From: a virus
Strand: one strand, 5' to 3'
IMG/VR virus record: IMGVR_UViG_3300006737_000099
Coordinates: 1-31,961 of that record
Length of the DNA: 31,961 bases
This document shows positions 2 to 15,454 of the stretch, in pieces. Under the pieces are notes generated by a model. That model was given only the letters and a program-made list of their open reading frames with translations. It searched no databases and was not told the DNA's origin. Position 1 is the first letter of the stretch. Each line of letters starts with the position of its first letter. Position numbers and translations under genes: made by a program.

Positions 2-217
2 AAAGAAAACACTGAAGCATACCAATGGTGTATAAAACATGGTGTGAAAATATACTCCGTGCCTTGCGGTAAAGGTTTTAACAATAAAACCTGTTGGATA
101 GAGGTAAATGTAAACGGAAGAAAACAACAAAGCCCAAATACTTATGGTCCAACTGAATTATGGCCTAAAGTTATGGAACTATATAAATTTTATTATGATA
201 AAAACATTCGCAAATAA
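2..217 (+). CDS. Phage protein of unknown function, C-terminal part only
   Basis: An open frame enters from the left edge and ends at TAA 215-217, giving the last 71 residues of a protein whose start lies outside the window. The visible part is mixed alpha/beta with many aromatic and basic residues (motifs KIYSVPCGKGF, TCWIEVNVNG, PTELWPKVMELYKFYY). I do not recognise a domain with confidence; it recalls short unknown proteins of Bacteroidota phages. It overlaps the next gene's preferred start (ATG 195) by 23 bases in another frame. The longer alternative start for the next gene at 144 would lie deeper inside this frame, which argues against it. Confidence 0.6.
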   Translation, partial: KENTEAYQWCIKHGVKIYSVPCGKGFNNKTCWIEVNVNGRKQQSPNTYGPTELWPKVMELYKFYYDKNIRK

Positions 218-905
218 ATTTAGAAATGCCAATGAAGCATTTGAGTACTGGTATCAGTGCATCAATATTTATGGCACGGAATTTGCAGGCACTAAAGCTT
301 TATTTAATGTAGGCTTTCAAATGGATAACCCAGATGAAGTCGATATCAAATCTAGCTTTCGTAAATGGAATAAAGACTACGCATCAGCAGAGTTTCAATG
401 GTATTTATCCGGCGATCCTAACATTAGCAAGCTAGGAGATATATACGGTAAAGTACCTAAGATATGGACTAAGATGGCTAATGAACTTGGTCAAGTTAAT
501 TCTAACTACGGAGCTCAATGGGAAAGACGTGGTCAATTAGACAACGTTATTAAAATGCTAAGACGTGATCCTAACACTAGACAAGCTACAGTATCTATAT
601 ATGATGGCAAAGAAATGGATCAATATAAATATGATACACCTTGTACTTATGCAATACAGTTCACAGTTGTAAACGACAAACTGAACATGTGCGTGACGAT
701 GCGATCTAATGATCTCTGGTATGGTTTCTGCAACGATCAGTATTGTTTTGCAAGATTGCAACAAATGGTCTCAGAGGAGACAGATTATGAATTAGGATCT
801 TACTATCATTTTGCTCACAATCTACATCTTTATACTAAAGATCAAGATAAATGGCCTGAAACACCTGATAGTCTGTTACAAAGAAAAGCTAGGATTTATG
901 GATGA
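195..905 (+). CDS. Thymidylate synthase-family enzyme, probable dCMP hydroxymethylase
   Basis: A 236-residue member of the thymidylate synthase fold, which transfers a one-carbon unit from methylene-tetrahydrofolate to C5 of a pyrimidine deoxynucleotide. The catalytic nucleophile is Cys150 (DTPCTYAIQF) and the phosphate-binding RSND motif is at 170-173. Thirty-one residues after the Cys lies Asp181 (GFCND). In bacterial TS the equivalent position, also +31, is Asn (Asn229 in L. casei), while in T4 gp42 dCMP hydroxymethylase it is Asp179, +31 from Cys148. PKIW and NSNYG (101-105) also recall gp42. This favours dCMP over dUMP as substrate; the product (hydroxymethyl- or methyl-dCMP) cannot be told. 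ATG 195 is chosen over 144 because it limits overlap with the upstream gene and gives a family-like length. No Shine-Dalgarno is visible. The ATG of the next gene overlaps the stop. Confidence 0.85.
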   Translation: MIKTFANKFRNANEAFEYWYQCINIYGTEFAGTKALFNVGFQMDNPDEVDIKSSFRKWNKDYASAEFQWYLSGDPNISKLGDIYGKVPKIWTKMANELGQVNSNYGAQWERRGQLDNVIKMLRRDPNTRQATVSIYDGKEMDQYKYDTPCTYAIQFTVVNDKLNMCVTMRSNDLWYGFCNDQYCFARLQQMVSEETDYELGSYYHFAHNLHLYTKDQDKWPETPDSLLQRKARIYG

Positions 906-2780: not shown

Positions 2781-4643
2781 ATGGAGTTATCAAATGAAAT
2801 ATTATCCGATATCACAGTGTATATGAAGTATGCTAAGTATATGCCTGAACTAAACAGACGTGAGTCATGGAATGAATTAGTTACAAGGAATAAAAACATG
2901 CATATTAAAAAATATCCTGAGTTAAAAGAAAATATAGAAGAAGTTTATAAATTAGTTTATGAAAAGAAAATTTTACCAAGCATGCGATCGCTTCAGTTCG
3001 GAGGTAAGCCGATTGAAATATCACCTAATCGTGTGTATAACTGCGCTTATTTACCTATCGATCATATTGACTCGTTTAGTGAAGTAATGTTCTTACTACT
3101 TGGCGGAACAGGTGTAGGTTACTCCGTACAACAACATCACGTTAAAAAACTAGAACCAGTAAATAAACCGTATACAAAAAGAACTAGAAGATTTTTAGTA
3201 GGAGACTCCATAGAAGGTTGGGCAGATGCTATAAAAGTTCTTATGAAGTCTTACATGGGAGAAAGAAGACAATCAACAATTGACTTTGACTTTTCTGATA
3301 TAAGACCTAAAGGAGCACAGTTAGTAACATCAGGAGGTAAAGCTCCTGGTCCTCAACCATTAAAAGAGTGTATATTAAAAATAACAGGCATATTAAACAG
3401 TAAAGAGTCTGGAGAGTCATTATCTACTATAGAAGTGCACGATATTGTTTGCCATGTAGCAGATGCAGTACTTGCTGGTGGTATACGTAGAGCAGCTTTA
3501 ATTAGCTTATTCTCTGCTGACGATGATGAAATGATTTCTTGCAAGTCAGGTAATTGGTGGGAAACAAATCCACAACGTGGCCGTGCTAATAATTCAGCAT
3601 GCTTAATGAGACATAAGATAACTAAAGAGTTTTTTATGGACTTATGGAAACGCGTAGAGCTTAGTAATGCTGGTGAACCTGGTATTTACTTTAACAATGA
3701 TAAAGATTGGGGAACTAATCCTTGTTGTGAGATAGCTCTAAGACCTTATCAGTTTTGTAACTTATGCGAGGTTAATGCTTCTGATATTGAATCACAAGAA
3801 GATTTAAACACGAGAGTAAAAGCTGCTGCATTTATAGGTACGCTACAAGCTGGCTATACTAATTTTCATTACTTAAGAGATATATGGAGAGAAACGACTG
3901 AAAAAGATGCACTGATAGGTGTATCAATGACAGGTATAGGATCAGGCGTTGTACTTGGTTATGACATGAAAAAAGCTGCTGATGTAGTTAAAAGAGAAAA
4001 CTCAAGAGTTGCAAAGATAATTGGTATCAATCCTGCAGCACGATGCACGACCGTGAAGCCTGCTGGGACGACATCTCTTGCATTAGGAACATCATCTGGT
4101 ATTCATGCATGGCATAACGATTATTATGTCCGTAGAATCAGGGTTGGTAAAAACGAAAGTATATATAAATACTTAGCTAACAACCATCCAATGCTAGTTG
4201 AAGATGAGTATTTTAGACCTCATGACACTGCAGTAATTAGTGTACCACAAAAAGCGCCTGAAGGTTCTATACTTAGAACTGAATCACCTTTTCAATTACT
4301 TGAGCGTATAAAGAAAGTGGCTCAAGAGTGGGTACTACCTGGTCATAGAAAAGGATCTAACACTCACAACGTTTCAGCTACTGTTAGTTTAAAAACTGAA
4401 GAGTGGGAAGATGCTGGTGAGTGGATGTGGAACAACAGAGATTGCTATAATGGTTTGTCTGTACTACCATTTGACGGTGGAACTTATACTCAAGCTCCTT
4501 TCGAGGATATTGATGAAGGAACTTATATAAATAGGTTACAACATTTAAAAGATATAAATTTAAAAGATGTTATCGAAACTGAAGACAACACTGACCTTAG
4601 TGGTGAGCTTGCTTGTGCTGGTGGCGCTTGTGAAATTAACTAG
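2781..4643 (+). CDS. nrdJ: Adenosylcobalamin-dependent (class II) ribonucleotide reductase
   Basis: A 620-residue monomeric class II reductase of the Lactobacillus leichmannii RTPR type, reducing ribonucleoside triphosphates to deoxyribonucleotides using a B12-generated thiyl radical. The catalytic NPCCE motif is at 313-317, with Cys315 as the thiyl position and Glu317 as general base. Cys326 lies 11 residues later, as Cys419 follows Cys408 in RTPR. Cys88 (YNCAY) would be the other active-site disulfide partner. The C-terminal tail has Cys612 and Cys617 around AGGA, the swinging dithiol that re-reduces the active site (Cys731/Cys736 in RTPR). No intein or frameshift is seen. Class II enzymes work with or without oxygen but need host or environmental B12. 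The last 77 bases are overlapped by the next gene in the +1 frame. Confidence 0.95.
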   Translation: MELSNEILSDITVYMKYAKYMPELNRRESWNELVTRNKNMHIKKYPELKENIEEVYKLVYEKKILPSMRSLQFGGKPIEISPNRVYNCAYLPIDHIDSFSEVMFLLLGGTGVGYSVQQHHVKKLEPVNKPYTKRTRRFLVGDSIEGWADAIKVLMKSYMGERRQSTIDFDFSDIRPKGAQLVTSGGKAPGPQPLKECILKITGILNSKESGESLSTIEVHDIVCHVADAVLAGGIRRAALISLFSADDDEMISCKSGNWWETNPQRGRANNSACLMRHKITKEFFMDLWKRVELSNAGEPGIYFNNDKDWGTNPCCEIALRPYQFCNLCEVNASDIESQEDLNTRVKAAAFIGTLQAGYTNFHYLRDIWRETTEKDALIGVSMTGIGSGVVLGYDMKKAADVVKRENSRVAKIIGINPAARCTTVKPAGTTSLALGTSSGIHAWHNDYYVRRIRVGKNESIYKYLANNHPMLVEDEYFRPHDTAVISVPQKAPEGSILRTESPFQLLERIKKVAQEWVLPGHRKGSNTHNVSATVSLKTEEWEDAGEWMWNNRDCYNGLSVLPFDGGTYTQAPFEDIDEGTYINRLQHLKDINLKDVIETEDNTDLSGELACAGGACEIN

Positions 4644-6142: not shown

Positions 6143-6401
6143 GATGTATATCTTTTTCTAATTGTTTTAAATCTTCTCGTAGCTCTTTGACTTTTAATTC
6201 TAGAGTTAATATATGGCCTTCTGTCCATTGTTGTTTAAGATCATATTCTAATCGTTTAACTTCTGCAGGAGGTAACTTTTTTGCCTCTTCTATATCTGAT
6301 TCTAAGGTATAGTACATTCCCATTATTGTCGATGTAAAAACAACTATACTAACAATTGTCTTTAAATCTAGTTTGAACTCAGTGTTTTCACCTATCTTCA
6401 T
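6123..6401 (-). CDS. Single-pass membrane protein with coiled coil; holin or spanin candidate
   Basis: A 92-residue protein with a charged N-terminus (MKIGENTEFKLDLK), one membrane segment at about 15-33 (TIVSIVVFTSTIMGMYY), and a charged helical tail (residues 55-88) likely to form a coiled coil. The layout, a short cytoplasmic end, one transmembrane helix and a long coiled coil, fits an inner-membrane spanin or a class III-like holin. Similar proteins occur in flavobacterial phages, usually unnamed. Its ATG overlaps the giant gene's stop (4 bases) and its end overlaps the next small gene by 20. No lysozyme or amidase is visible nearby, so the lysis role rests only on topology. Confidence 0.75.
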   Translation of the reverse strand: MKIGENTEFKLDLKTIVSIVVFTSTIMGMYYTLESDIEEAKKLPPAEVKRLEYDLKQQWTEGHILTLELKVKELREDLKQLEKDIHHGNKKK

Positions 6402-9400
6402 TTTTCTAGTTCTATAAGTTTATTAACTCTATCTTTTTCATATTTCAAAGCTCTTATCTGAGCTTTAGTTAAACCTAGTTCAAGTAGTTTATCTACTTGA
6501 TCCTTCTTAGTTAGTGCTTTATATCCGTCAAACTTTTGTTGTTTAGCTATTTCTTTCTTTTCTTCTTCCGTTGGTTCTTCTCCGCTATGTTTCTTTATAA
6601 TAAGCTTAATCTTAGCATCTTCAGATTTAGCTTTCTTAATAGTATCACTATCTATACCTAAAGACTTCATTAACTTGATTTGCTGAGGCGCCGTTAAATT
6701 TTTTATAGTATCATAATCAGTAGAACCTACGGCCTCTTTGTATCTTGCTTCTTTCTTATCTTCTTTAGCTACTGCTTTTTCTTCTGGAGTTTTAGGTTTA
6801 GAATCTTCTTTATCTTCTAACTGCCATTCTGGCCAACCTAATAACATAGCTACTGATTTCCAAGTTTCTTGATCGTCTTCTAACGCTCCTTTAATATTAT
6901 TTATTTTACTAAATAATCTATCAAGAGGTATATTAGTTGTAGCAGTAATTACTTTAGCCAACGATTCATAAGCAGGATTATCTAAGCTAAAACCTTTTTC
7001 AAATACTTCTTCTCTACGTTTCTTGCTATCAAAAGGATAACCAGCACTTCTAAGTTTAGACAGCTTACTTTTTATAGCAGGTGAAAATTCTAATAGCTTT
7101 TGCCAAGCATCGCTATATTCTGGTCTATCTCTTTGTGATCTATCATATATGTTTATACCTAAGTTTTTAAGCACTTGAACAGTAACACCAGCAAAACCTA
7201 AACCTCTAAGCCAAGAATCCATCATACCATTAGCAGTATTAAATATTCTTTTTTCATCACTCTCACTCATTTCTTCATCATCATCTCCAAAGCCCATAGC
7301 AAACAAACCTTGTTGCAGTGCATTAAATAACATGTTTTGTAAGAAAGCATAGTAAGTTATTCTAGACAACCTAGTTCTATTACTTTGAGCTAGTGTTTTA
7401 CCAGGCATAGGTCTTCTATTAATTATATCTTGCATATCTCTTTTCTGTACTCTTACATATTGCATTGGAGTATTAACATACTGTAGTATAATTCTACCCA
7501 TATCACCTGATTGTTGTTGTGATATTTTACTTGGATCAGATGACTGTTGAGAAACTTCTGATGTTGCTTTAAACTCTTCCATAGCTTGAGCTTCAGCATC
7601 AGCTCTACTCATACCTTTTTTAAGTAAGTTATTAACTCTGTTTCTATAAAACATAGCACCACCAGAAGCTATAGCAAAACTATCAGCATACTTAGTTGGT
7701 ATATAACCTTTTTCTAATATGTAATTTAAAACTGCTTTAGCTTTATTCTTCGATGTTTTAGCAGCATCTGCAATCTCTGATTCTGATATATTAAGTTTTA
7801 AACCATTACGTCTATCAACTAAGTAATCAGAGTTCATAAGCATTGTAAAATCTTTCCAATACTGAGGTTGATTAGCAAAAGCTTTACCAGCATTAAGAGG
7901 ATTATTAAAGCTCCAGTTTATAAAGTTAGCAGCAGATATAGTTTGTAGCAATGCTGATCTAGCATTAAAGAACATTGTAACACCGGTAGATTGATTTATA
8001 TAATCTAAAACTTGATTACTTAATCTATTACCTCCAGCTATTCTGTTTCTACCAGCTTTCATCCTAGCTAAACTGTTACGTAAAGCTTCGACATACTTAG
8101 GACCTAATGCAGCTTCAAGCTTGTTCATATTATCTTTAGAGAATATAGTATCAACGTTAGCTTGCCACTCTTGTAAATACTTAGAACGCTTATTAGTATT
8201 TAACACATCTATTAAATCAGTAGTTAGAGTACCTAATTGCCACTCAGCTTTAGGTGTAGAATAGCCATCACCTTTAGTTATAGATAATAATTGATTTGCA
8301 AACACTTTTAATTTAGGATCATTTTCTACTATATCATTTAGCTCTTTAAAATCTTTTTTAGATAAACCAGGTATCTCTTGACCAGTCTTAGCCCATAAGT
8401 AAACTCTTACAGCTTGCTCATTAGTAAATCCTGATTTAGTTTTCTTACGTAAATCTCTAGGAACTTCTAACTGCTTCTTTAACGCTTTAAAGTCAGCCAT
8501 TAAATTAACTCTATCTGTCGCTAAGTTTTCCATAGCTCTAGCATAAGGTTTATTTAAAGCTTCATCAAAGAACTTCATTTGTTCTGTGCCTTGCTTGCCT
8601 TTACCTAACATAGCATAAAGTAGTCCTTGAAAATCTTCAGCTGATGGTGGTATAAAGAATTTACCTCTACCTTTTCTAGCACCTGCTAATTGAGCTTTAA
8701 CATCTGAATATATTTTAAACTTATCGATGCCTTTAGATTGTTCTATAATCTCATTAAACTCCATGTTTAAGTCTTTACTAAACTTAATCTTAGCTTGTTG
8801 AGTTTTAGATTTAACATCTAATACTTCTAATGCGTCTCTTACTGCTTTAACATTTTGTGTTGCATCATCAGCAAAATAAAAGTCATTATAACCTTCAGCT
8901 GCTTTATCAACTATCCAGTTTGATTTAGCAAATGGTGAGCTATTACCTAAGCCAGATATATTTTGAGCAGGTATGTTTAAACCTATAGCATCTAAAAACT
9001 CTTTAATAGCTGGTGATGCTTCTTGAGATCTTGCAGTTAGTACAAATATATCATCTGCTCCTCTTGCTTCTTGTATCTTTTTAGCAACTTCAAATAGTGG
9101 ACCTTTCTTACCATCTATTACTTTGTTAAACTCTGAAAAATCAAACTCAGCTCCGTCAGCTAATATCTCATCTCCTTTTTTAGCAAACTCTTCAGCAGTT
9201 AGTTTTTCAGTAGGTTTTATAGAAGACTTATCAAATATAGCTATGCTTTCTGTCCCTTTGCTAGATATTTGAGATCCATCCTCGTATCTAAAACCTTTAA
9301 AACCATCTTTAGCTAATTCTTTTTTAAGTTGTTCTACTTTTTCTTTTCCTATGTAATAATCCTCAAACCTAGAATCTATCATCTCATATAACAATCCTTC

Positions 9401-12400
9401 AGTTATGTCAATATCTAATTCTTTTAATTTATTTAAAACATATTGTTCATTAGCTAAAGCGTTGTCATTAACTGTTATTTCTTTAACATTACCTCTGTTA
9501 TTTTCAGCATATGCTTGAGCTTCTTTTATATCTGTAGCTAAAAATGTTAAGCCAGTTCTTTGGCCTAGTTTATCAAAAGACTTAGGGCTAGCATTGTAAA
9601 CTATGCTTTCACTAGGCATAGTATATAATACATTGCTTTTAGTTCTAGCTAATGTATCATCAAAATCAAAAACTCTTATTTTCTTAACTGGAGCATTAGG
9701 ATTACGAGCGTTACGTAAAGCTTCATCTAAACTAGCAGCTTTATTAAGAACATCTTCTGAAGTCATGTTCTCAGAATCTTTAGTGTCCATTACTTTAGGG
9801 CTATCAACTAGAGGTACATTTACTTTTTGATTAGTTTTGTTCTTAGAAACTTCTACAGGTAAAGCAATATCTAATTCAGCTTTTGCTGTTTTAGCATCTA
9901 TTTTACCTATTATTTGTTCGTATATTAATCTAGCTTGTAGTGATACAATGTCTGGATTATTAATTAAATTATTAGGAACTTCAACATTATATCTCTTAGC
10001 ATCACTTATTCCCTCTCTAATTATATTATTTGGGTTTAAATGAAAATGTTCATTATATTTTCTTAAATCTGGACTAGGAACATTACTAAAATCACCTGTT
10101 TTCATGGCTATATCCATTTGTTCCTTCATATATGGATGTTCTTGTGATTTAGCATCATAAATGCTTCCATCTTCTAGCTTATATTTTCCATCTACTAATC
10201 TTTCTGAATCTTTAGTTATAGTTTCTTGATAGTAATTTTCAGCTTGCCATTTATTAAAAGCATCAAATATTTTCTTGTCTTTAGTAATAGCTTGTAAAGT
10301 ACGTTGAGCCCAAGGCCCAGCTTGATATATGTGTTCTTCTCTAGCATTATTTTTACCCGAACCTATTTCAACACCAATTAATTGAGCTAAATTTCTATAC
10401 ATTGCTGAATTAGCATTAGCATTATATAGCATAAAAGCAATTCCTGACAAAGAATTATTATTACTATCGTACATATTCTTTAAGCTATTTAATATAGCTT
10501 TAGATCCTTCTTTATGTTTACTTCTACTATCTATATTTCTTTGTAAATTTGGTGTTTTTTGTGGTAACGTAGCTGTTTTTATAGAATCTATTTTAGTATT
10601 AGACTTTAAATCTTTACTTTTAAATAAATCTAAAATATCTTGAAGCTGTCCTAATTTACCTTCATCTATAAGTTTTTGAGTTTCAGGTTTAGATTTTAAA
10701 GTTTTATTAATACTATTTATAAATAATTGATCTCTACCAATAGCGCCACCAGTTTTCTTTATACTTCCGTCTTGATTAAAAGAAACACCTTCATTACCTG
10801 ATGGACTAATAGTAGAAGACTTTAACAAAAACTGAGCACTATCACCAAATTCTTCAATTAACTTAGGAAAAAACTCATTCAACAAATAACTTACGCTTTC
10901 TATTCTACCTTCTCCTTTAGTTTCTAGCGGTCTAATACCAGCTTGCTCTTGTATATACTTAATATTTTCTTTAACTCCTTTTGTTTTAGGTTTAACTGCA
11001 TTTTTACTAAACATTACTCTAGACTTACCTTCAGTAATCTCAACTGGAGCATCGGGCATTGCTTCTCTTACAGCTTGGTTAGTAAGTAACTTGCCTGTTT
11101 GATCTACTAAAGCTTTAATTCTAGCACTAGTGTTTCTATCAGATACGTTTGGTTGGCCTGCAGGTGTGATCCCAAAGACTTCTAAGAACTCACTAGCTTT
11201 TATATTAGGTTTTTTATTCTGTGTCGCTAAACCTTGAGTACTGCCTGTTTTAGCAGCTTTAACTCTACGACCTTTGTTATAAAAAGGATCTAGTAATACT
11301 TTTTGTAATCCAGTAGATTTACCACTGATAGTTGTACCTTCAGGTAGCATAGCTAATAGTATATCAGCATTTTTTCTAATAAAAGCTTGAGCATTTTTAA
11401 CATCTGCTTTAGTTAAGTTACCTGGCTTAGGTGTAATACCAAACATACGTTGAGTATCGTCTGGTGCTAAATCTTTTAACGTCTTATAAGTTTTACCTTC
11501 TAAAACTGGTTTCATCTTCTTAACCTTGTCAGATATCTTTTTAGCATCGTCACCTAATCTTTCTGCTAGCTTAATACCTTTTCTTGTTTCAGTTCCAACC
11601 TCTTTTGATATCATTGCTTCTTCAGGAGTAGCATCTTCAGATTTAATATCAAATTCTTTTTCACCTTCTTTAACTGCTTGACCTAATCTCTTTGATGTAG
11701 GTTTTTCAGCTGATTCTACACCAAGCCTAGACGCTAGAGAATTCATTCTCTGCATACCTCTGTTAGCCATAAACCTATTGAAGTCTATAGGGTTACCGTC
11801 TTTATCTTTCCTCTTAGGATCAAACTCTTTAGCTATTTGTTGTAATTCTGTTTTAGCGCTTTCGATGTATGATTGTCTAGTTACTCCAGCTTTTTGTTTA
11901 ACATTAGCAGGTATAGGTTTACCAAATTTAGACCAAGCTCTGTTAGCAACCTTATCAACCATAGTTTGAACCTGCTTAGGATTTACATCTTTAGAAAAAG
12001 CAGTTTTAGATTTTTCGTCTTTAGCTGTTGTTGTTTCAGCTTGATCTTTAGCTTTAACTTTAGCATCACCTTTTATAATAGACTTAGCCAGACCTTGTAA
12101 TTGCCCAGTTTCAAATGATTGATTGTAGCTAGTAAGCATGTCAAATACATCTTTACCAGTTTCAATTTGATTATTACCATCATTTACTTTTTGAAATCTA
12201 CCAAATAACTTGTTATGCAAAGTTCTATCACCTTGTAAATTATTCATTCTCATGAAATCACTAAGGTTAGCCAGTTGCTCTTCAGCCATTTGCTCTTTAC
12301 TAAGACCTTCAGATTCGTAAGCGGCTCTTACAGCTTTAAAATTATCATAAGCTTTTTTATAATTATTTTTTACATAAGACTCTAATTCATCTACTAGTTC

Positions 12401-15400
12401 AACAGCTCGCGGATTATTTTTAATAAACTGCTTATACATTGTTTGATGACCTAGTTCATGAGAAGCTACTGTAGCATTATTCTTATTTAAAGCAAAGGTC
12501 ATAGGAACGTTTAAAGTTTCTTTAACCATTTTACCATCCTTTTGAGTCTCAATTTCTATATTGTCACCCCAAGCAAAACCATTATAGCTTTCGCCGTTAG
12601 CAGACTTTTCTTTTATAGCATTAAACTCTGTGGTAAGATTATCTTTTAACGCAGACTTTTGTTGATCAGTCAAGTCCATAGCATCTATTTTATCTAAACC
12701 TTGATCTAATGCAGACTTAGAGTTATCAGCCACTACGTACTCAACCATATCTAGAGTTCCGTTTTCTGTCCTTATTTTAGTTGATAAATCTGATTGTCTC
12801 TTAATATCAGCATTGAATGTAGCATCAGATAATATACGACTTCTAATAGCTTCACTTTTAGCTATACCATCTAACCGACCATTTACCATTATAGCTTTAT
12901 TCTCTTTGCTTATGTCAGGATTTTCGTTTATCTTGTCAATTTCACTTCTTAACTTATGCTCTTTATTATATTGATCAATCATGCCTTGACGATCAGAACC
13001 AGTCATATCTAAAGTTCTTTGCCTAACTTTATTCATGCTTTCCATTTGCTTGTCTAAAGTTTCTTCAATTTGAGATTGAAGCATACCAGCTGCACCATCT
13101 CTATCTCTTGGATCTTTAGCAAGTATAGCATCTCTTTGCTTAGATAAAGATATCATTTGAGCATTTAGTTTATTGGCTTGAGCAAACTCTGCTTCACTAG
13201 AAAAAGCAGTTGTAACCATTGAAGCTATTGCTGGAGGTCCTGAAAACATGTTACCCATAAAGAAACCAGCAGCCATAGAATCTGTCATGCCATCCATTAT
13301 AGAAACATCTTCTTTTCCTAACACAACTCTATCAGCAAAATTACTAGTTAACTGTACTATACCTTCTGCTCCAGCTTCTTTAAAAGAATCTTTACCAAAG
13401 TTATAACCTAATTTAGCTAACTGCTTGGGAGTTGTCATTTGTTTTAAAGTAGCGTTTATACCATCACCACTTAAGTCAAATGCTTTTTGAACATTTTTAA
13501 AACCACCTTTTAATATACCTAAACTTACTTTTTCAGTTAAGTATTCTGCACCACCTACCATTGCTCCTGTACCAAAGTACTCTAAAGCATTATAATTAAC
13601 TGGAGGAACTTTATATTTAGAATCTGGTGGGGTAACGCCACTTTCTTTCATGTCTGCTAATTCTTCAGCAGTCCACTCAACACCTTCCATCTCTTTGTTC
13701 ATCTCATACATCTTACCTCCAGCAGCGCTGCCAGCTAATACAAGTAGACCAGCAGGTGGAAAAGCTACGGTAAGAGCAGTGTTAACCATTTGACCTGAAG
13801 CTAGATCCATCATATACATACCAAAGTCACCTAATGAATCTACTTCACCAATAGAAGGAACAGGAGCATTTTGACCTTTTATAGCATTACCCATTTGATG
13901 AGCTGAATCCAACGCATTGCTCATAGACAAATTAGCTTTACCTTGGTTTCTAGCTAGTTCTTTTATAGTAGATTCTTCTTCTCCAAAAATTTTAGTTAAA
14001 CCTTCTTCACTTTCTATATCTAAACCACTCCATTTAATCATTTCTGGTAACGTTAGTTCATGGACTAAAGTACCAACACCAGCACCAACAGTCATAACAG
14101 AGGATAAAACATTGTTATTAACCATCTCAAGGTTATCGTAAGTTTTAAGTGTAAGATTTTTTATAGTATCATAATCATTTGATGGAATTGCTTTAGACCC
14201 TAGATCATCTATGTCTTTCTGGTATAGAGCTCTATCTACTTTTACTTTTTCAAATAATCTTGCATAATCAGAATATTCTTGATCAGAAACTTTCTCTCCT
14301 TTTTCTTGAAGATTTTTAAATTTCTCTTCATAACTGTTTATAGACTCAATTTCTTTTTTGATATTATCTCCCCGACTAACTATATTATTAACTTGACTAG
14401 CGTATTCTTTTTCTAATTCTTTTTGTTTAACTTCTAGTTTGTCATATATTTTTATTCTAGCGTCATAGTATTCTTTGCCTTGCTTACCACCAAAAACCGC
14501 ATTAGCTTGCATTGCCGCAGAACTCCAAGCTCCTTGTTCTTGTATTCTTTTTTTATCTTCTTCTGAAAGATTGCTAATGAACTTGTTTCTACCTTCCTCA
14601 GTCATAATATCAAAAGTACTTGACACAGCACTTCCAATATCGGAAAAAATTTGAGAGATTGAAGTATCTGTTCTATCTATACCAAAATCTGTCTCAACTT
14701 GTTCCATGACTTCAGCAGTTTGACCAGCTTTCCACTTAGTGTTTTTGTCCGCTATAGCCATTTTTATAGCCATTTCTTTAACGTCTTCTTTTCCAGGATC
14801 TTTGCCTTGATCTTTTAAACTTTTTTCTGCTGACTCTAAAAAAGCTTCATAAGGCGCAGTAATAGAGGCTTTAGGTATTGCTCCAAAAAATGGCGTGTCT
14901 ATTTGTGGAGCTGGAGTAGTTACTTCTTCAGTCCATTGTTCTACCATTTCATCTGAAGCGCCTGTATTAGTTATTTCAAAAAGTTTACTAGCAAAATCAT
15001 CCTGAACGTCTTCGTCTAGTTTAGCTCTTTTCTTAGCGTTAAACTCTTCTAATTTTTTTAATTTTTTTGCTTTTTCTTCATCAGATATAGTGTCGTTTCT
15101 CATCAACCTTAACTTGACTACTTGTTCAGCTTTATCTATTACCTCTTTTTCTTTTTGGTAATTTATAGATTTTTTAGTTTCTTCAGCTTGTTCCTCAGTA
15201 GGTTCTTCATCAACTTCAGTAACTTCAACACTTTCTGTAGTTTTACCTTTTCCTGATTTACCAGTTAACCCTCCGCTAAAAAAATCTGTTTTCATTACTT
15301 CTAATTCTGGCAAATCGTAATATGGTAACATATTTTTTCTAAGCCTAGCTAAATTAGAATCATCTTGCATTTCTGATTTAAAAGTATTAAAATCAGGTAG

Positions 15401-15454
15401 ATCAAAATGCTTTATACTATTATCGTAAAATCTTTTTAACTTTTCCTCGTTCAT
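6398..15454 (-). CDS. Giant 3018-aa internal virion (polyvalent) protein: metallopeptidase, HAD, ART-like
   Basis: A single uninterrupted frame of 3018 residues. The N-terminus has two imperfect repeats (FDLPDFNTFKSEM and YDLPELEVMKTDF). Hydrophobic stretches lie at roughly 445-460, 560-590 and 725-755. HELGH at 999-1003, with a likely third ligand in EEQLANLSDF at about 1058, marks a zinc metallopeptidase. DFDDT at 1930-1934, LTARS around 2140, Lys2177 and ADD around 2195-2197 form a HAD-type phosphatase; residues 1948-2085 inside it look like an ADP-ribosyltransferase-type domain. The C-terminal third is helical, contains NTPMQYVRVQKRD, and ends in two HeH/SAP-like repeats (2913 on). Position after the tail genes and this multi-domain layout fit a protein ejected into the host with the DNA. 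It is not an RNA polymerase: no DxDxD motif was found. A nine-residue motif (DYDTIKNLT) occurs at 427 and 2913. Confidence 0.88.
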   Translation of the reverse strand: MNEEKLKRFYDNSIKHFDLPDFNTFKSEMQDDSNLARLRKNMLPYYDLPELEVMKTDFFSGGLTGKSGKGKTTESVEVTEVDEEPTEEQAEETKKSINYQKEKEVIDKAEQVVKLRLMRNDTISDEEKAKKLKKLEEFNAKKRAKLDEDVQDDFASKLFEITNTGASDEMVEQWTEEVTTPAPQIDTPFFGAIPKASITAPYEAFLESAEKSLKDQGKDPGKEDVKEMAIKMAIADKNTKWKAGQTAEVMEQVETDFGIDRTDTSISQIFSDIGSAVSSTFDIMTEEGRNKFISNLSEEDKKRIQEQGAWSSAAMQANAVFGGKQGKEYYDARIKIYDKLEVKQKELEKEYASQVNNIVSRGDNIKKEIESINSYEEKFKNLQEKGEKVSDQEYSDYARLFEKVKVDRALYQKDIDDLGSKAIPSNDYDTIKNLTLKTYDNLEMVNNNVLSSVMTVGAGVGTLVHELTLPEMIKWSGLDIESEEGLTKIFGEEESTIKELARNQGKANLSMSNALDSAHQMGNAIKGQNAPVPSIGEVDSLGDFGMYMMDLASGQMVNTALTVAFPPAGLLVLAGSAAGGKMYEMNKEMEGVEWTAEELADMKESGVTPPDSKYKVPPVNYNALEYFGTGAMVGGAEYLTEKVSLGILKGGFKNVQKAFDLSGDGINATLKQMTTPKQLAKLGYNFGKDSFKEAGAEGIVQLTSNFADRVVLGKEDVSIMDGMTDSMAAGFFMGNMFSGPPAIASMVTTAFSSEAEFAQANKLNAQMISLSKQRDAILAKDPRDRDGAAGMLQSQIEETLDKQMESMNKVRQRTLDMTGSDRQGMIDQYNKEHKLRSEIDKINENPDISKENKAIMVNGRLDGIAKSEAIRSRILSDATFNADIKRQSDLSTKIRTENGTLDMVEYVVADNSKSALDQGLDKIDAMDLTDQQKSALKDNLTTEFNAIKEKSANGESYNGFAWGDNIEIETQKDGKMVKETLNVPMTFALNKNNATVASHELGHQTMYKQFIKNNPRAVELVDELESYVKNNYKKAYDNFKAVRAAYESEGLSKEQMAEEQLANLSDFMRMNNLQGDRTLHNKLFGRFQKVNDGNNQIETGKDVFDMLTSYNQSFETGQLQGLAKSIIKGDAKVKAKDQAETTTAKDEKSKTAFSKDVNPKQVQTMVDKVANRAWSKFGKPIPANVKQKAGVTRQSYIESAKTELQQIAKEFDPKRKDKDGNPIDFNRFMANRGMQRMNSLASRLGVESAEKPTSKRLGQAVKEGEKEFDIKSEDATPEEAMISKEVGTETRKGIKLAERLGDDAKKISDKVKKMKPVLEGKTYKTLKDLAPDDTQRMFGITPKPGNLTKADVKNAQAFIRKNADILLAMLPEGTTISGKSTGLQKVLLDPFYNKGRRVKAAKTGSTQGLATQNKKPNIKASEFLEVFGITPAGQPNVSDRNTSARIKALVDQTGKLLTNQAVREAMPDAPVEITEGKSRVMFSKNAVKPKTKGVKENIKYIQEQAGIRPLETKGEGRIESVSYLLNEFFPKLIEEFGDSAQFLLKSSTISPSGNEGVSFNQDGSIKKTGGAIGRDQLFINSINKTLKSKPETQKLIDEGKLGQLQDILDLFKSKDLKSNTKIDSIKTATLPQKTPNLQRNIDSRSKHKEGSKAILNSLKNMYDSNNNSLSGIAFMLYNANANSAMYRNLAQLIGVEIGSGKNNAREEHIYQAGPWAQRTLQAITKDKKIFDAFNKWQAENYYQETITKDSERLVDGKYKLEDGSIYDAKSQEHPYMKEQMDIAMKTGDFSNVPSPDLRKYNEHFHLNPNNIIREGISDAKRYNVEVPNNLINNPDIVSLQARLIYEQIIGKIDAKTAKAELDIALPVEVSKNKTNQKVNVPLVDSPKVMDTKDSENMTSEDVLNKAASLDEALRNARNPNAPVKKIRVFDFDDTLARTKSNVLYTMPSESIVYNASPKSFDKLGQRTGLTFLATDIKEAQAYAENNRGNVKEITVNDNALANEQYVLNKLKELDIDITEGLLYEMIDSRFEDYYIGKEKVEQLKKELAKDGFKGFRYEDGSQISSKGTESIAIFDKSSIKPTEKLTAEEFAKKGDEILADGAEFDFSEFNKVIDGKKGPLFEVAKKIQEARGADDIFVLTARSQEASPAIKEFLDAIGLNIPAQNISGLGNSSPFAKSNWIVDKAAEGYNDFYFADDATQNVKAVRDALEVLDVKSKTQQAKIKFSKDLNMEFNEIIEQSKGIDKFKIYSDVKAQLAGARKGRGKFFIPPSAEDFQGLLYAMLGKGKQGTEQMKFFDEALNKPYARAMENLATDRVNLMADFKALKKQLEVPRDLRKKTKSGFTNEQAVRVYLWAKTGQEIPGLSKKDFKELNDIVENDPKLKVFANQLLSITKGDGYSTPKAEWQLGTLTTDLIDVLNTNKRSKYLQEWQANVDTIFSKDNMNKLEAALGPKYVEALRNSLARMKAGRNRIAGGNRLSNQVLDYINQSTGVTMFFNARSALLQTISAANFINWSFNNPLNAGKAFANQPQYWKDFTMLMNSDYLVDRRNGLKLNISESEIADAAKTSKNKAKAVLNYILEKGYIPTKYADSFAIASGGAMFYRNRVNNLLKKGMSRADAEAQAMEEFKATSEVSQQSSDPSKISQQQSGDMGRIILQYVNTPMQYVRVQKRDMQDIINRRPMPGKTLAQSNRTRLSRITYYAFLQNMLFNALQQGLFAMGFGDDDEEMSESDEKRIFNTANGMMDSWLRGLGFAGVTVQVLKNLGINIYDRSQRDRPEYSDAWQKLLEFSPAIKSKLSKLRSAGYPFDSKKRREEVFEKGFSLDNPAYESLAKVITATTNIPLDRLFSKINNIKGALEDDQETWKSVAMLLGWPEWQLEDKEDSKPKTPEEKAVAKEDKKEARYKEAVGSTDYDTIKNLTAPQQIKLMKSLGIDSDTIKKAKSEDAKIKLIIKKHSGEEPTEEEKKEIAKQQKFDGYKALTKKDQVDKLLELGLTKAQIRALKYEKDRVNKLIELEK
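6698..6719. repeat. 22-base perfect repeat, copy 1 (in giant gene, 3' part)
   Basis: The same 22 bases (ATTTTTTATAGTATCATAAT then CA) occur here and at 14156-14177, in the same orientation and reading frame of the giant gene, about 7.5 kb apart. On the coding strand both encode DYDTIKN; the matching protein motif extends to DYDTIKNLT. Confidence 0.8.
14156..14177. repeat. 22-base perfect repeat, copy 2 (in giant gene, 5' part)
   Basis: Second copy of the direct repeat at 6698-6719. It covers residues 427-433 of the giant protein. Recombination between the copies would delete about 2486 codons in frame. Confidence 0.8.

Follow-up and report, generated by a model that had tools for sequence, protein, structure and literature searches.

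Known enzymes of the thymidylate synthase fold that modify cytosine

The thymidylate synthase (TS) fold has been put to several uses in pyrimidine modification. The dCMP hydroxymethylase (dCH) of phage T4, gp42 (structures 1b49 and 6a9a), owes its hydroxymethylation signature to an Asp three residues before the catalytic Cys (Cys-3) and to a Ser/Tyr pair, activates its folate with Glu60, and regulates its cofactor site without the C-terminal tail of TS (PMC6400193). T4 also encodes a dNMP kinase, a dCTPase, a polymerase and glucosyltransferases. DNA of T4gt, in which 5-hydroxymethylcytosine (hmC) is unglucosylated, resists 81.9% of the Type II enzymes tested, and the 5-methylcytosine (5mC) DNA of phage Xp12 resists most restriction enzymes (PMC7653180). 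MilA, the CMP 5-hydroxymethylase of Streptomyces, accepts ribose CMP through Lys133 and Ala176, which replace the deoxyribose determinants (PMC5175136). Two structures, 9iqc and 9iqu, represent the AfhB enzyme of phage HY126; their titles name a riboflavin-dependent monooxygenase with dCMP and FAD in one case and the AfhB dCMP hydroxylase in the other. The dUMP hydroxymethylases are represented by SPO1 gp29 and a Kuttervirus enzyme. In a MetaGPA study, Asp at E. coli position 177 occurred chiefly in contigs whose cytosine was modified, position 147 was the other top residue, the PF01503 domain type co-occurred with TS-family genes on modified contigs, and an engineered TS showed that the selector Asp alone yields 5-methyl-dCMP (PMC8670742).

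A candidate dCMP hydroxymethylase in an uncultured phage lineage

Here, we compare these systems with a gene at the start of a viral DNA stretch of 31,961 nucleotides (IMG/VR record IMGVR_UViG_3300006737_000099), the whole of which is called the window. The gene probably encodes a folate-dependent dCMP 5-hydroxymethylase, which would convert dCMP to 5-hydroxymethyl-dCMP (hmdCMP) and so lead to hmC in the phage DNA. The gene and the codons that matter most are the following.

195-905, + strand: candidate dCH, TS fold, 236 aa (PF00303, E=9.9e-30; best PDB matches 1b49 and MilA; AlphaFold model)
390-392, + strand: Glu66, folate-activating Glu, equivalent to T4 Glu60 and E. coli Glu58 (alignment; kept in 80/80 relatives, lacking in the AfhB type; role from PMC6400193)
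501-509, + strand: Ser103-Asn104-Tyr105, equivalent to T4 Ser94-x-Tyr96 (alignment; hydroxymethylation signature, PMC6400193)
633-635, + strand: Asp147 at Cys-3, where true TS has Leu; equivalent to T4 Asp145, which activates water (alignment)
642-644, + strand: Cys150, catalytic nucleophile (alignment)
735-737, + strand: Asp181, cytosine selector, equivalent to T4 Asp179, MilA Asp186 and E. coli Asn177 (alignment; relatives)

The reading frame is translated without interruption, and its ATG at 195 agrees with the start in close relatives. Pfam (Thymidylat_synt), PHROGs (E=9e-45) and NCBIfam all label the protein broadly as a thymidylate synthase. The NCBIfam TS equivalog models nevertheless score it far below their cut-offs (84.5 versus 327 and 63.3 versus 108.35), and HMMER searches rank T4 dCMP hydroxymethylase (E=2.3e-18) and MilA (2e-17) as its best solved relatives. 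Identity to T4 gp42 is about 25%. The assignment to the hydroxymethylases is strong on grounds of homology. A single scan confirmed 508 IMG/VR stretches of the lineage.

The closest cultured relatives, at 45-46% identity, are proteins annotated as deoxycytidylate 5-hydroxymethyltransferase in Bacteroides phages BF503P1, BF503P2, BF503P4, BF486P2, BF486P3 and BF494P1. One BF503P2 copy has the residue set of the window protein; the BF phages differ in their 52-54-kb genomes and in a second TS-fold place. The two TS-fold paralogues of BF503P2 (L082:16471-20669) are both annotated as dCMP hydroxymethyltransferase; the second, a divergent copy without the folate Glu, follows an AAA_28 kinase-like protein and also neighbours a dUTPase.

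Active-site residues

An earlier note on this DNA had proposed, from a spacing of 31 residues between Cys150 and Asp181 and an ungapped alignment, that Asp rather than Asn occupies the selector site. The spacing was borne out, and both HMMER and MAFFT align Asp181 with T4 Asp179 and with Asn177 of E. coli ThyA, Asn180 falling one column earlier. The GFxND and NSNYG motifs that the note had likened to T4 occur literally in gp42, and they and the spacing are kept in 80/80 relatives. Profile, alignment and predicted structure agree on the TS fold and the catalytic Cys, and the likeness to gp42 extends to the selector Asp, Asp at Cys-3, Ser-x-Tyr, the catalytic Glu and the lack of a TS-type C-terminal tail.

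Thirteen residues (Glu66, Trp91, Ser103, Tyr105, Arg129, Asp147, Cys150, Thr151, Ser171, Asp173, Asp181, His211 and Tyr213) are invariant in 80/80 IMG/VR relatives, and the dCH active-site set is also invariant in an alignment of 64 sequences, so that the pattern is not a matter of chance. A panel alignment shows four features (Asp as selector and again at Cys-3, Ser-x-Tyr, and a Thr directly following the Cys) in the window protein, T4 gp42, Aeromonas phage 31 gp42, the one BF503P2 copy and phages ATCCB and VPE25. The TS of the panel, namely E. coli ThyA and three from phages, carry Asn as selector and Leu at Cys-3; their Ser position is filled by Pro or Arg, and His follows the Cys. SPO1 gp29 and the Kuttervirus enzyme share the catalytic Cys and Asp at Cys-3 with the window protein, but they combine these with a selector Asn and with Asn after the Cys, where the window has Asp and Thr. 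MilA resembles the window protein in its high structural score, its selector Asp and its Asp at Cys-3; a ribose substrate of the MilA type was ruled out, since Arg129 and Ser171 are of the deoxyribose type and not the Lys and Ala of MilA (PMC5175136).

Structure, phylogeny and competing assignments

The AlphaFold2 model of dCH (pLDDT 89.7, pTM 0.87; residues 145-148 poorly modelled) gave VIA-align Z scores of 23.1 for 9iqc, 22.9 for MilA, 22.6 for 9iqu, 19.8 for T4 dCH and about 19 for TS. On structure alone a dCH cannot be told from a TS, since T4 dCH and TS are tied near Z 19-20 and AfhB ranks first. In the phylogeny, true TS form their own group behind a 100/100 branch with a length of about 2.5, the window family lying outside, and AfhB-type proteins form a separate 100/100 clade. 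The deep branches among the hydroxymethylases, T4 gp42 included, are poorly supported, and a tree with the window family and TS on one side of a branch was not rejected (AU test, p=0.127); it is therefore the residues, not the deep topology, that carry the argument.

The general annotation of the family would make the gene an ordinary thymidylate synthase that supplies dTMP. This is barely credible in view of the residues (selector Asn changed to Asp, the His after the Cys to Thr151, and the Leu at Cys-3 to Asp), the scores below the equivalog cut-offs and the branch that splits off TS, and ordinary ThyA was ruled out on these three grounds. Nesting within dTMP-forming ThyA, which the earlier note had named as a refutation, was not seen, and its proposal of a dCMP-directed base-modification enzyme is well supported by the Asp181 selector and by the position outside ThyA. 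The highest structural score prompted another candidate, a flavin-dependent dCMP hydroxylase of the AfhB type producing 5-hydroxy-dCMP, which has the TS fold, the catalytic Cys and the selector Asp in common with the window protein. The Z gaps of 1-3 are small, however, sequence searches favour T4 dCH and MilA, and AfhB types fall in their own clade. Furthermore, where the window protein has Glu66, Trp91, Ser103, Asp147, Asp173 and Tyr213, all kept in 80/80 relatives, the flavin enzyme type (as in the Mosigvirus p000y protein, nearly identical to 9iqc/9iqu) has Phe, Ala, Thr, Glu, Asn and Phe. The AfhB pattern of Phe for the folate Glu, Glu at Cys-3, Thr-x-Tyr and Asn at the Asp173 position is thus absent from the window, and the candidate was rejected on these six residues; because the window family retains folate-type residues, a flavin enzyme is very unlikely.

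The AfhB pattern does occur in a protein of Rhizobium phage RHph_N34 (L097:1010-1786) annotated as thymidylate synthase, for which AfhB structures are the only solved relatives at E<1e-6. Judged by its sequence, this is probably a 5-hydroxy-dCMP enzyme; a dNMP kinase and an NTP pyrophosphohydrolase adjoin it.

Gene neighbourhood and gene content

The genes around dCH in the window are as follows.

2-217, + strand: small upstream gene, C-terminal part only, whose end runs into the dCH start (58 loci have a small gene of median length 89 aa at the same position; matched by position only)
898-1728, + strand: 276-aa protein ending in a MazG/PRA-PH-type nucleotide pyrophosphatase domain, candidate dCTPase (PF03819 and PF01503 above gathering cut-off)
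1718-1999, + strand: small operon gene (ORF list; relatives' loci)
1986-2432, + strand: DUF1064 nuclease-like protein with a weak Phage_endo_I match (Pfam; PHROG Holliday junction resolvase)
2781-4643, + strand: class II-type ribonucleotide reductase in the same operon as dCH (Pfam, NCBIfam)

In the relatives, dCH sits in a cluster of replication and nucleotide genes, ordered DNA ligase, sigma-like factor, Erf, exonuclease, Toprim primase/helicase, small gene, dCH, MazG-type gene, small gene, DUF1064 nuclease and ribonucleotide reductase. The last slot varies between the class II-type enzyme of the window and class I NrdA/NrdB (L035:8363-10132, L078:12345-13343) at about the same place. The ATG of the MazG-type gene at 898 overlaps the dCH stop by 8 nt, and a relative of its protein is present in 78 loci. 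This protein is a possible dCTPase, a role that is only inferred because T4 gp56 itself matches the MazG family weakly (best E 0.24). Its N-terminal ~200 residues (898-1500) had no Pfam match; the first 30 bear a likeness, by eye only, to a GIY-YIG nuclease motif.

Each of 40/40 long relatives has exactly one PF00303 gene, and none has ThyX (0/40). Fold, residue set, gene order and the lack of a detectable dTMP-type synthase are direct results of sequence and structure comparison. Profile searches of the same 40 long relatives, whose records may be incomplete so that a negative does not prove absence, yielded no family A/B DNA polymerase above cut-off, no T4-type dNMP kinase and, for the single glycosyltransferase family searched, no PF13692 protein; a dCMP deaminase was found in 2/40. 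No glycosyltransferase, carbamoyltransferase or DNA-modification kinase was among the top 25 families listed in scans of five long relatives. Of the accessory functions known from T4, only the MazG-type protein was recognised in the window lineage.

Apart from one environmental genome, MW202828, all matches to the portal protein come from phages that infect Flavobacterium, Cellulophaga, Tenacibaculum and Maribacter. Six such portal-matched records (MW202828 included, which has ThyX instead) and 25 further long IMG/VR portal relatives have no PF00303 gene. The portal tree groups the window with five carriers in a single clade (SH-aLRT 100), which amounts to one change of state. A host search returned mixed MAG labels, possibly binning errors. 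The window also encodes a predicted 3018-residue protein (6398-15454, - strand) with an internal HELGH metalloprotease-like motif, and similar giants recur in relatives. A GroEL-type chaperonin is phage-encoded in 5/5 long relatives examined (e.g. L101:14273-15823, - strand), and Flavobacterium elemo phages have matching GroEL genes.

Restriction-site footprint

Protection of the phage DNA should ease the selection that keeps restriction sites rare. Observed/expected ratios of C-containing palindromic 4-mers were determined in 12-kb segments, in a comparison that began with few genomes and was then widened to 53 carrier loci (window included) and 31 loci lacking the gene. The median ratio was 0.96 in carriers versus 0.78 in loci without dCH, and a strongly avoided palindrome was present in 1/53 versus 17/31, groups whose host restriction repertoires may differ. 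Because the carriers are one clade in the portal tree, the difference represents a single evolutionary contrast, and the Mann-Whitney value of 4e-11 does not count as independent evidence. Among gene-lacking genomes, GATC was seen 0 times versus 156 expected in MW202828 (50 kb examined) and 0 versus 170 in Panino. GATC, CATG, CCGG, CTAG or GGCC is wholly or nearly wholly missing from the dCH-lacking phages L117, L133, L118, L184, L189 and L200. The sole carrier locus with strong avoidance is the 13.7-kb contig L037 (CATG 0 of 21 expected, GCGC 3 of 12).

Relaxed avoidance in carriers agrees with protected DNA, and any cytosine modification would give such a footprint. It therefore does not discriminate against a dCMP methyltransferase that makes 5-methyl-dCMP for 5mC-containing DNA, as in phage Xp12 or in TS engineered from Asn to Asp, in the latter of which the selector Asp is enough. 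We regard this alternative as unlikely, because Asp147 at Cys-3 (Leu in true TS) and Ser103-x-Tyr105 make up the hydroxymethylation signature and because the alignment covers only E. coli TS residues 1-225 of 264, which means that the TS C-terminal tail is missing, as in T4 dCH. The case for a hydroxymethyl rather than a methyl product, as predicted from these features, is moderately strong; the earlier note had left both open, and its hydroxymethyl option is now favoured and its methyl option the less likely. Equally, hmdCMP might be made for a purpose other than DNA modification, such as draining the host dCMP pool. The kinase, polymerase A/B and glycosyltransferase family sought were not found in carriers, which is in keeping with this idea, but kinases and polymerases may be host-encoded or unrecognised and the loss of palindrome avoidance fits protected DNA; a use outside DNA modification is quite unlikely.

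A proposed pathway and its implications

In the hydroxymethylase that we favour, Cys150 would attack dCMP at C6, Asp181 would select and protonate the cytosine, and Glu66 would activate methylene-tetrahydrofolate. The exocyclic methylene intermediate would then be quenched by water held by Asp147, Ser103 and Tyr105, giving 5-hydroxymethyl-dCMP. The presumably co-transcribed MazG-type enzyme may remove dCTP. Kinases and the replicase of the host, or else phage proteins that escaped recognition, would put hmC into the phage DNA, where it would block restriction endonucleases. Incorporation into virion DNA is plausible, site avoidance and gene context pointing to modified cytosine only indirectly. 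Neither a T4-type dNMP kinase nor a family A/B polymerase that would carry hmdCMP into DNA was found in the long relatives. A literature search of incomplete coverage returned no report on the DNA bases of this lineage.

More tentatively, one can imagine a minimal hmC system, possible but by no means probable, in which the DNA is fully or largely hmC-substituted and unglycosylated, a dCMP hydroxymethylase is coupled to a MazG-type dCTPase, kinase and replicase come from the host, and acquisition of the pair released the lineage from the site avoidance of its relatives. Such a model needs no glucosyltransferase, given the resistance of unglucosylated T4gt DNA to most Type II enzymes.

The window protein adds a new and widespread member to an enzyme family already known. 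If its proposed function is true, cytosine replacement reaches a large uncultured podovirus-like lineage related to marine Flavobacteriaceae phages, and hmC would, as it does in T4, shield the phage DNA against the restriction enzymes of bacteria. With no recognised kinase or polymerase, the lineage raises the question of how hmdCMP could enter DNA by a route other than that of T4. Standard library preparation, Cas9-type tools and methods based on restriction can all miss modified DNA, so that such phages may be under-sampled. Carriers and their close gene-lacking relatives, which avoid restriction sites, also offer a natural comparison for the effect of base modification on genome composition.
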